DNA of 64,000 nt from Aneurinibacillus thermoaerophilus (GTDB taxonomy: Bacteria; Bacillota; Bacilli; Aneurinibacillales; Aneurinibacillaceae). Made by a program: the position numbers and the translations under genes. Below the pieces are notes generated by a model. The model had not been told where the DNA came from, searched no databases, and saw only the letters and a list, made by a program, of their open reading frames with translations. The stretch lies in assembly GCF_900099925.1 (NCBI RefSeq), contig NZ_FNDE01000003.1, positions 62,001 to 126,000 of the forward strand. The letters are read 5' to 3'. Shown one piece after another: positions 30,822-32,707 of this stretch. Position 1 is the stretch's first letter, and every line of letters starts with the position of its first letter.

Positions 30822-31622
30822 TTATTTTTCTGTAATATCTGCCATTTCGATAATTTGTGCTTCTTCGAGATTGTACAGCGCATCAAGAAGTGCAATCTGG
30901 TACGAACCCGGGGCAGATACAATTTGTCGCGCCAGTTCCGCAGCGACACCGTAGCTCGCAAGTCCCGCGGCTGCCGCGAACACGAAATCTTGTTCTACGG
31001 CGGCATAAGCCCCAAGAATGGAAGTAAGCAAGCACCCGGTGCCAGTAACCCGGGTCAACATCTCGTCTCCGTTACGAATCATATACAGCTTGTCAGGCCC
31101 GGCCACCACGTCCGTTTTACCGGTAATCGCAACAACCGTGCCCAGCGCTTTCGTCGCCTTTCTGGCAAGTTCTTCCGTATCTCCGCCTTTCTCTCCGGCA
31201 TCCACACCTTTAATCTCCCATGACTCGCCGATTACATTGGCAATCTCCGCTGCATTGCCGCGAATAATGGCAATATCAAGTTCGTTGACAATACGACGCG
31301 CCATTTCCGTCCGAAATGGCGTCGCCCCGGCTCCGACCGGATCAAACACAACCGGAACCCCGTGCTTATTGGCCGATTTTCCGGCGATCAACATTGCCTC
31401 TACCGTTTCCCTCGTGAGCGTGCCCATGTTCAGCACAAGGGCACCCGCAATCTTCGCCATATCAGCTACTTCTTCAGGAGCGTACGCCATCACCGGGGAA
31501 ACGCCAAGCGCCAATAACCCATTAGCCGTAAAATTTGTTACCACTACGTTTGTTATATTATGTACAAGCGGTTTTTTTTCACGCAGCTTCAAAAGCAAAG
31601 CTGCAGCCTCCTGTCCAAGCAT
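30822..31622 (-). CDS. thiM: Hydroxyethylthiazole kinase
   Basis: 266 residues, normal length. Phosphorylates 4-methyl-5-(2-hydroxyethyl)thiazole in thiamine salvage. Motifs [20 protein letters not shown] and [18 protein letters not shown] (anion hole and catalytic region) are clear. The ATG at 31622 follows AAAAAGGAGG. Upstream DNA lacks TPP-riboswitch consensus blocks. Confidence 0.95.
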
Positions 31623-31674
31623 AACATTTCCTCCTTTTTATCTTAGTCGGACATGAAAAAAACTTGTGCCAATC

Positions 31675-31731
31675 TTAATATAATCTTAATGCTAACAAAA
31701 CAAAATACTTACATACCTATAGTAGTATAAT
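31675..31731 (+). promoter_or_regulatory. PhoP-box-like repeat and sigma-A -10 driving candidate sRNA 1
   Basis: TTAATA-TAATC-TTAATG (31675-31691) has the 11-bp period of Bacillus PhoP boxes (TTHAYA-N5-TTHAYA). A perfect TATAAT lies at 31726-31731, with no recognisable -35, as expected of an activator-dependent promoter. Confidence 0.5.
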
Positions 31732-31737
31732 GAGTGG

Positions 31738-31815
31738 ATTGATCTCCAAAATCATGCCACATTCTGTGGCAGCCCCATTCTCTTTGGTCCCGGCCATTTA
31801 GCCGGGACAATTTTT
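31738..31815 (+). ncRNA. Candidate small RNA 1 (about 78 nt)
   Basis: It starts about 7 nt after a perfect TATAAT. It contains a 7-bp hairpin TGCCACA-TTC-TGTGGCA, an unpaired C-rich stretch GCCCCATTCTCTTT, and a strong terminator (GTCCCGGC, loop CATTTA, GCCGGGAC, then AATTTTT). No plausible open reading frame. Unpaired C-rich stretches in Bacillus sRNAs often pair with Shine-Dalgarno sequences, so post-transcriptional repression is a possible role. No known family is recognised. Confidence 0.5.
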
Positions 31816-31867
31816 AACACAATCTTAACAAAATGATGATACAAAATTCGTATTCTGCGTGTATTCT
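31814..31867 (+). promoter_or_regulatory. PhoP-box-like repeat and -10 driving candidate sRNA 2
   Basis: TTAACA-CAATC-TTAACA (31814-31830) is an exact direct repeat with 11-bp period, matching the Bacillus PhoP consensus. A TATTCT -10 candidate lies at 31862-31867, 31 bp after the box; the gap is 34 bp for the upstream copy. Confidence 0.55.
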
Positions 31868-31873
31868 AAAACT

Positions 31874-31966
31874 AAGCATAGTCTTGTCCCACTGCCTCTT
31901 ACCCGAGCTTAGGAGCATATGGGCACACCTCTTTTCAATTGAGCCTTCTTCCAGGCTCTTTTTTTT
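31874..31966 (+). ncRNA. Candidate small RNA 2 (about 93 nt)
   Basis: CTAAGC and GCTTAG would close a loop holding C-rich segments (GTCCCACTGCC, TTACCC). The transcript ends in a terminator with perfect arms GAGCCT and AGGCTC followed by eight T. No credible reading frame or ribosome site. It is not similar in sequence to sRNA 1 but shares its promoter layout. Confidence 0.5.
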
Positions 31967-32014
31967 ATAGTTATGTAGCACAACTTAGGGGCCACATATT
32001 TTAATGCGCCCCCG

Positions 32015-32506
32015 TTACTCTTCCTTGTCGATCCACTCTAAGTCCGGCGTCGCCACCCATTCCGGTCTAAGCCCCCTCTGGGCGGCATACTGTCTAACCC
32101 ATTCGTTCATTACCTTCTGTGTCCCTTGATACTGGCAAATGATTTTCCGTATCGCTTCATTCAATTCTTCCTGTTCTAGCCCTCGATGCCTTTCTCTAAA
32201 TCTCATGATACGAAGATTGGCCTTTACGTTATTTTCTATTTTGGCAAACGCGCTAATATAACGAATCACACTCGCTTGGTCAGCCGGATTCATTTCATCC
32301 ATAACATAACGATCAGTCAATTCCGACAAGCTCTTTCTGAGTTCATCCGGCTCCATCTTCTCTTCGTAAACACGCTGTGTCACTTCATCCATATACAACT
32401 TAATCTTTTCCGACTCTACTAAATCTCCAAAAAGGAAAGTGAATACTGAATCACTAATTTTTTTGCTCTTTTTTTTATGAATCGTGCATCCATTTTCTGT
32501 GCCCAT
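32015..32506 (-). CDS. Hypothetical charged helical protein
   Basis: 163 residues, unrecognised. A Lys-rich N-terminus (IHKKKSKKISD) is followed by predicted helices (LYMDEVTQRVYEEKMEPDEL, VIRYISAFAKIENNVKANLR). No membrane segment. The ATG at 32506 was chosen because GAGGTGG lies 7 nt before it, inside the longer frame. Confidence 0.65.
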   Translation of the reverse strand: MGTENGCTIHKKKSKKISDSVFTFLFGDLVESEKIKLYMDEVTQRVYEEKMEPDELRKSLSELTDRYVMDEMNPADQASVIRYISAFAKIENNVKANLRIMRFRERHRGLEQEELNEAIRKIICQYQGTQKVMNEWVRQYAAQRGLRPEWVATPDLEWIDKEE

Positions 32507-32707
32507 ATTCGTCCACCTCATTTTCCTGTTATTATAATACTACGAAAATGAGCACTAAAACAGCATATATCTATCTACAATATAGTTATTTAGAATGATT
32601 TATTCCCTCCTCTTTATATAAATATTCAAGGCTTTTGCCATAAAATTCATTCGTTTCTCATCGTAGAAGACAAGTGGATAGGAAAACACAAAGAGTCTTT
32701 TGCCCTA

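Follow-up and report, generated by a model that had tools for sequence, protein, structure and literature searches.

Positions 31675-31966 of the 64,000-nt stretch of Aneurinibacillus thermoaerophilus DNA analysed here (the window) quite probably carry two independent, tandem, non-homologous genes for trans-acting small RNAs of the Pho regulon, which would pair with Shine-Dalgarno (SD) sequences in a phosphate-sparing response. Two independent sRNAs behind PhoP-type boxes, the interpretation offered by the first-pass annotation, is the best reading of this locus in view of conservation in relatives, compensatory base changes, the presence of the tandem in a second genus, a third RNA, arrays at phoU and pst and a PhoPR-like pair. 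The two modules, both on the plus strand, lie between thiM and a 168-aa ORF and are made up as follows.

30822-31622, minus strand: thiM (hydroxyethylthiazole kinase), divergent neighbour; NCBIfam NF006830 and TIGR00694 above cut-off
31675-31713, plus strand: PhoP-type four-box array of sRNA1, 11-bp period, PhoP-consensus score 20/24; boxes TTAATA (31675-31680), TTAATG (31686-31691), AAAACA (31697-31702) and CTTACA (31708-31713)
31723-31728, plus strand: -10 hexamer TAGTAT of sRNA1, 9 bp past box 4, without a -35
about 31736-31815, plus strand: putative sRNA1, ~80 nt, 5' end placed by conservation and -10 spacing
31755-31771, plus strand: internal hairpin of sRNA1, TGCCACA-TTC-TGTGGCA, with one compensatory pair (A-U to G-C) in this genome
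31787-31815, plus strand: sRNA1 terminator, stem-loop and T tail
31814-31852, plus strand: PhoP-type four-box array of sRNA2, PhoP-consensus score 21/24; boxes TTAACA (31814-31819), TTAACA (31825-31830), ATGATA (31836-31841) and TTCGTA (31847-31852)
31862-31867, plus strand: -10 hexamer TATTCT of sRNA2, 9 bp past box 4
about 31875-31966, plus strand: putative sRNA2, ~92 nt, with a deduced 5' end
31924-31936, plus strand: conserved sRNA2 segment CACACCTCTTTTC, which prefers SD windows; in the predicted fold its ACA closes a stem and the CCTCTTTTC portion is unpaired
31941-31966, plus strand: sRNA2 terminator, stem-loop and T tail; stem sequence varies by species, pairing largely kept
32015-32521, minus strand: downstream 168-aa ORF, no NCBIfam match

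By sequence and predicted fold, each RNA has the attributes of a trans-acting sRNA, namely its own promoter, a short structured RNA, its own terminator and a conserved unpaired segment, and the modules at 31675-31966 are presumably transcribed as short RNAs. The hairpins with T tails previously annotated as terminators were found at both places, and the T tail of the sRNA1 terminator shares 2 nt with the first box of the sRNA2 array. No ORF of 60 aa or more lies inside the sRNA region. Along 31300-32400 a sigma-70 scan detected no promoter on the plus strand, which would be expected of promoters where an activator stands in for the -35 element. Rfam (4227 models) gave no match in the window at gathering score, and at relaxed thresholds nothing over the RNAs reached its gathering score, the matches falling far below; nor was a TPP riboswitch reported by Rfam in the window. 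The PhoP-type boxes of sRNA1 and the divergent thiM promoter may share DNA (window 31623-31740), and PhoP might also act on thiM.

The promoter elements originally listed are present, but their arrangement differs from the one first described. TTAATA-N5-TTAATG is found at 31675-31691 and TTAACA-N5-TTAACA at 31814-31830; however, each array has four boxes rather than two when aligned with relatives. Likewise, TATAAT (31726-31731) and TATTCT (31862-31867) do occur 34 and 31 bp past the respective second boxes, but the conserved -10 hexamer of sRNA1 is TAGTAT, not TATAAT, which gives both promoters the same 9-bp spacing. The two-box pattern is not above chance: there are three matches in the window against 2.24 expected, and 35 of 100 shuffles contain three or more. 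The case rests on conservation, geometry and co-regulated phosphate genes, not on the two-box motif. The whole modules exceed chance in their conservation, in the ungapped promoter spacing seen when relatives are aligned, and in folding, which for sRNA1 beats 200 of 200 shuffles (z -3.88) but for sRNA2 is only slightly better than shuffled sequence (10 of 200 as good, z -1.56).

The distribution of the two RNAs was traced by a DNA search with a 361-nt query over 61 genomes. Seven matched: the genome itself, five others of the genus and, through a 29-bp terminator match, G051. The seventh genome of the genus, G006, matched at E 0.027 once the search was limited to the genus. Failure to find the modules in relatives had been named beforehand as an outcome that would count against them; when the comparison was run, both the RNAs and their promoters proved to be conserved. 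Five of the seven genus genomes possess sRNA1 (this genome, G001, G002, G003 and G005) and five possess sRNA2 (this genome, G002, G004, G005 and G006); in G003 a decayed sRNA2 promoter is retained and the RNA is gone. The four further genus genomes that possess sRNA1 show 73-80% DNA identity over 136-294 nt. Conservation in sRNA1 is highest at the 5' end, GGATTGATCTCCA, the first 13 bases being identical in all five genus copies and in G007, while in sRNA2 the sequences GG-CACACCTCTTT and CATAGTC-TGTCC are near-invariant. The C-rich segment GCCCCATTCTCTTT quoted in the first-pass annotation is indeed there, but only as this species' version; relatives carry ACTCCATTCTCATT or similar. Compensatory changes are found at 4 of the 17 pairs of the sRNA1 hairpin and terminator. 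Two-sided changes are found at 5 of 22 pairs in sRNA2, where G004 and G006 have lost the upper stem and no longer form several of the pairs. An exact-pattern scan with GGATTGATCTCCAMAAT was too loose, returning at least 118 stretches across many phyla, and was not used.

Covariance models of sRNA1 (R1) and sRNA2 (R2) were run against a set of 299 genomes from the class. Neither model picks up the other's RNA in the own genome at E <= 0.1, and there is accordingly no sign that the tandem arose by duplicating the transcribed part; judged by these models, sRNA1 and sRNA2 are unrelated, non-homologous RNA genes in tandem. Besides the genomes on which they were trained, both models matched G007, which belongs to another genus of the same family (R1 E 0.047, R2 E 7.5e-4), at places about 120 bp apart and in the same order and on the same strand. 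The R1 value is unconvincing alone, since matches at 0.05-0.09 are also seen in six other genomes. The G007 locus runs GGATTGATCTCC...GCCACA...TGTGGC...terminator, then AGCATAAG...GGGCACGCCTCTTTTC...terminator, and its RNAs are flanked by thiM-thiE and a HesB-like gene (genes named by eye). The four-box scores upstream of the pair are 21 and 22 of 24, compared with 13-18 at 12 other loci with weak matches. Weak matches outside the family (R1 in those six genomes; R2 in seven, E 0.003-0.084) were dismissed as chance, none of the 12 inspected loci having an upstream array above 18/24; the inspected set leaves out the match in G115, another R1 match at C36 of the own genome and all but one of the seven places in G167. 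This last genome, from another family, has weak R2 matches of nearly equal score at seven places, L197 among them; the one inspected reads as a long inverted repeat and is probably a repeated element rather than an sRNA2 homologue. A 20-of-21 match to sRNA1 in G000:C82 (L015) was also discarded, lying by eye in the gene's sense and not as a complement.

A third RNA came to light through the promoter. R3, a sequence-only model of ten intact promoters, was searched in the seven genus genomes and recovered these ten. It also found the decayed G003 site (E 2.7e-5) and, in G001, G002, G003 and G005, a locus not seen before (E 8e-5 to 1.9e-4). Downstream of the promoter at this new locus come a 49-nt stretch, variable at five positions, and a terminator with a species-specific stem sequence; the predicted RNA, about 80 nt long, is called sRNA3. 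A DNA search over 31 genomes placed sRNA3 in the own genome at G000:C46:117643-117784 (L249:5644-5784), where R3 gave only E 1.39 for the promoter, and sRNA3 is thus found in five of the seven genus genomes; the other matches were pieces of at most 33 nt, and G004, G006 and G007 gave no match of the length of the 49-nt stretch. The remaining R3 rows had E 0.056 or worse. One of them is the G006 phoU promoter (E 0.10), and several of those inspected lie inside coding sequence.

On present comparisons, sRNA3 is unrelated to sRNA1 and sRNA2 and has the same type of promoter, and none of the three RNAs belongs to an Rfam family. It has CCCUUG/UCCCUUG motifs that resemble those of RsaE. An identity with RsaE/RoxS, suspected from UCCCUUG, gained no support, as none of the five sRNA3 loci is matched even with a limit of E = 5; Rfam likewise gave no RsaE/RoxS match for sRNA1 or sRNA2, relaxed thresholds included. 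The layout 6-5-6-5-6-5-6-9-6 with a TAnnnT -10 fits 17 of 17 intact promoters of the three RNA families, those of sRNA3 being anchored on the first box and two from G007 placed by hand; the decayed G003 sRNA2 promoter was left out both of this set and of R3. The T, A and final T of the -10 are present in all 17 aligned promoters, and the RNA's first conserved base comes about 7 bp after the -10, displaced by 1-2 bases in some sRNA2 copies. With matrices built while leaving one family out, members of the omitted family score 15.7-29.5. The combination of RNAs differs between lineages: G004 and G006 have only sRNA2, and G001 and G003 have sRNA1 together with sRNA3.

Two other views of the transcripts were weighed against this comparative record and rejected. 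That they encode tiny peptides, as dual-function or leaderless mRNAs, is highly improbable. Short frames can be picked out by eye in the own sRNA1 (15 codons) and sRNA2 (7 codons), and a 16-codon frame is open in the sRNA3 copies, its stop missing in G002; however, starts, stops or frames vary between species, a consistent SD is absent, and the five variable positions of sRNA3 are spread over all three codon positions. Just as slight is the chance that the RNAs act in cis on downstream genes, as leaders (attenuators). In five relatives (G001, G003, G004, G006 and G007) the RNAs are indeed followed on the same strand by a HesB/IscA-like gene (named by eye), but a terminator closes each RNA, a TATAAT visible by eye stands between terminator and HesB-like gene in G001, G003, G004 and G006, and the downstream gene of the own genome is on the opposite strand. 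In this genome (window 31960-32521) the minus-strand 168-aa ORF takes the place of the HesB-like gene, ahead of a proline-dehydrogenase-like gene (by eye).

The preferred reading, that of independent sRNA genes, places them under PhoP. The fifth position of the Pho box admits C or T as alternatives. Pho boxes of B. subtilis are described as direct repeats of TT(A/T/C)ACA with spacers of 5 +/- 2 bp (PMC3036859). The consensus scored here, derived from B. subtilis, was TT(A/T/C)A(C/T)A four times at an 11-bp period (maximum 24), and it was scanned over 210,136 positions comprising the window and three stretches of the own genome picked for phoU, pst and sRNA3. The top scores were those of phoU (22), pst (22, reverse strand), sRNA2 (21), a second phoU register (21) and sRNA1 (20), together with two registers of a second site upstream of pst (20) and five further sites at 19. 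All remaining sites scoring 20 or more sit at phoU or pst. Noise reaches 19, so that sRNA1 is one above it, and the own sRNA3 falls below 19 in this four-box scan; shuffled sequence yields 0.2 sites of 20 or more per 64-kb strand. The proposal that the repeats fit the Bacillus PhoP consensus is thus borne out, degenerately, by arrays ranking next after phoU and pst.

Supporting this assignment, the phoU promoters resemble those of the sRNAs. The own gene is identified as phoU by TIGR02135, above cut-off. With a matrix trained on the sRNA promoters, from which phoU promoters were absent, the phoU arrays of this genome, G001, G002, G003 and G005 score 17.7-19.0 and show the same 9-bp spacing and TAnnnT -10, another register scoring higher in G001; in each of these five genomes, at most 1 of 500 shuffled sequences attains the best score. 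The array of G006 phoU is weak (11.3; 2 of 500 shuffles), and G004 phoU has no convincing array (8.3; 8 of 500). When the training sites were masked, scores of 16 or more occurred over 358,962 positions only at the own phoU and at a shifted register of G007 sRNA1; scores of about 17 are also seen at unrelated places (L260, 17.5; L270, 17.0). A four-box array of TTTACA type scores 21-23 at pst in all seven genomes, on the strand opposite to the gene and with a geometry unlike that of phoU and the sRNAs (L250:4742 in the own genome; homologous places L141-L146). Alkaline phosphatase (PF00245) is found only in G003 among the seven genomes, with a site of 16.8 upstream of its putative start on the same strand, which weakly backs the PhoP reading. 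The own phoU (L251:7273-7932), with its own four-box promoter (L251:7128-7181), lies about 42 kb from the pst operon, near tuf and a rodA/ftsW-like gene (by eye).

A regulator of the appropriate kind is encoded at L259. Its best PDB match is RegX3 (5.2e-66), with MtrA also matched and 1mvo, 'PhoP response regulator', at 9e-55 for the receiver domain only. RegX3 is listed among phosphate regulators (PMC4415409). The adjacent kinase gene, cut by the locus end, has PnpS as its best NCBIfam match at 352.8 bits, under the cut-off of 400. By these matches a PhoPR-like pair is present in the genome; the part of this locus examined contains no array and no site scoring 9 or more. It is unlikely, but conceivable, that the RNAs are real and answer to another OmpR-type regulator (e.g. 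WalR-, ResD- or Lis-like) with similar 11-bp repeats. The genome has 12 OmpR-type DNA-binding domains, direct repeats of OmpR-family regulators resemble one another, the arrays at pst are unlike those of the sRNAs in strand and geometry, and neither the L259 regulator nor its kinase passes the cut-off of any of the 25 NCBIfam families shown. On the other hand, the sRNA geometry is common to phoU in five genomes, and the PhoP consensus ranks pst and phoU highest. Given these top consensus sites, the phoU geometry and the PhoPR-like pair, PhoP is probably the regulator of sRNA1 and sRNA2, as the likeliest candidate rather than a proven one.

The conserved pyrimidine-rich segments of the RNAs are mostly unpaired in the predicted folds, and the idea that such C-rich segments pair with SD sequences was examined on 64 gene starts of the own genome, chosen for having an SD, by comparing SD with coding windows against 60 shuffles. 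Six segments chosen by the authors were used, the values being uncorrected for six tests. The idea is supported, in a statistical sense only, for three of them: the sRNA1 5' end, the CACACCTCTTTTC region of sRNA2 and the TCTTATCCCTTG region of sRNA3 show an SD preference that beats 58 of 60 shuffles. The other three, the sRNA1 middle, sRNA2 5' and sRNA3 5' segments, show no clear preference (8, 20 and 23 of 60 shuffles as good). SD pairing by the sRNA segments is thus weakly supported.

Long exact complements of the sRNA1 and sRNA2 segments disclosed no conserved target. For the sRNA1 5' 12-mer, the sole exact complement in the own genome is at the sRNA1 gene itself; G001, G003 and G006 give four further matches. 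The complement of CACACCTCTTT occurs four times in the own genome, once as sRNA2, against two for a reversed-pattern control. Of the other three, one coincides with the SD of a gene for a secreted oligoendopeptidase-F-like protein (L277, G000:C18:39826; named by eye), complementary over 13 nt exactly, and this gene may be taken as a lead to an sRNA2 target and no more. It is quite unlikely that one or both RNAs instead sequester proteins or serve as decoys directed at the ribosome, with sRNA2 titrating an SD-binding or RNA-binding factor through its anti-SD-like segment. Such a role would suit the CACACCUCUUUUC segment of sRNA2, which we take to resemble the anti-SD 3' end of 16S rRNA, and would suit the lack of a conserved exact target for the sRNA2 segment and of any in the own genome for the sRNA1 12-mer. 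However, distinct mRNA targets account more readily for several RNAs that differ in sequence yet share one control, and to our knowledge the targets of sRNAs rarely have long exact complements.

Because the pyrimidine-rich segments prefer SDs in three of six cases, SD-blocking antisense repression of the kind put forward for LhrC of Listeria (PMC4132741), in the service of phosphate sparing, is proposed, and translational repression under phosphate starvation appears to be the likeliest role. In low phosphate, phosphorylated PhoP would bind the four-box array upstream of each RNA. The arrays occupy about -61 to -23 relative to the presumed start, which is 7-8 nt after the -10, and from there PhoP would recruit RNA polymerase to a -10-only promoter as an OmpR-type activator replacing the -35. 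The resulting transcripts of ~80 and ~92 nt would each be stopped by their own terminator. The sRNA1 5' GGAUUGAUCUCC with its CAUUC stretch and the sRNA2 CCUCUUUUC would then pair with the ribosome-binding sites of target mRNAs and block translation. The outcome would be a phosphate-sparing response, with sRNA3 in the same set. Transcription, PhoP binding and phosphate response of the sRNAs are what we infer from the DNA.

Nutrient-sparing sRNAs are well known for iron. FsrA of Bacillus and the tandem PrrF1/PrrF2 of Pseudomonas are short, C-rich, Fur-controlled and spare iron, and the PrrF genes, near-identical copies, each have their own regulated promoter. The RNAs described here would be of the same nutrient-sparing kind, but with phosphate and PhoP in place of iron and Fur, and sRNA1 and sRNA2, unlike the PrrF copies, are not near-identical. 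The mycobacterial PhoP is a different regulator. Mcr7 of Mycobacterium tuberculosis is alike in being an sRNA that is under a protein named PhoP and modulates translation; it differs as a single RNA whose abstract makes no reference to phosphate starvation (PMC4038636). The LhrC1-5 sRNAs of Listeria are multicopy, under LisRK and induced by envelope stress, and no LisR consensus was known (PMC4132741). They offer a Gram-positive likeness in that several sRNAs are under a two-component response regulator and carry CU-rich sites, one of them single-stranded, predicted to lie over the SD sequence, with translation of the target impeded (PMC4132741). In contrast, the LhrC copies are homologous and respond to envelope stress (PMC4132741), whereas the present RNAs are unrelated, neither R1 nor R2 reporting the other, and their boxes fit PhoP. 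Among Gram-negative bacteria, phosphate-responsive sRNAs of S. meliloti and a PhoB-induced sRNA acting on E. coli rpoS share the principle of an sRNA output of the phosphate two-component system (PMC8829014). These are proteobacterial and partly Hfq-linked, and the sections of that source consulted describe no tandem genes behind four-box PhoP arrays (PMC8829014).

Regulated multicopy or tandem sRNAs (LhrC) and phosphate-regulon sRNAs in Proteobacteria are already known (PMC4132741, PMC8829014). What appears to be new, on the sequence comparisons above, is a single PhoP-type promoter architecture shared by three RNAs that have no Rfam family. No report of PhoPR-regulon sRNAs in Bacillus-like bacteria was found in the literature as searched by title and abstract opening, a search in which subscription journals are mostly uncovered. 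On balance we lean toward a phosphate-starvation RNA regulon in Bacilli, in which PhoP would govern three unrelated sRNAs through one stereotyped promoter, with SD-pairing segments that differ among them, and in which the tandem would predate the split of the two genera. If this is true, a textbook regulon gains post-transcriptional repression, and the question is opened of whether Gram-positive cells spare phosphate via sRNAs. These three RNAs, unrelated but with a common promoter architecture and missing singly or in pairs from some lineages, would provide a natural comparison.
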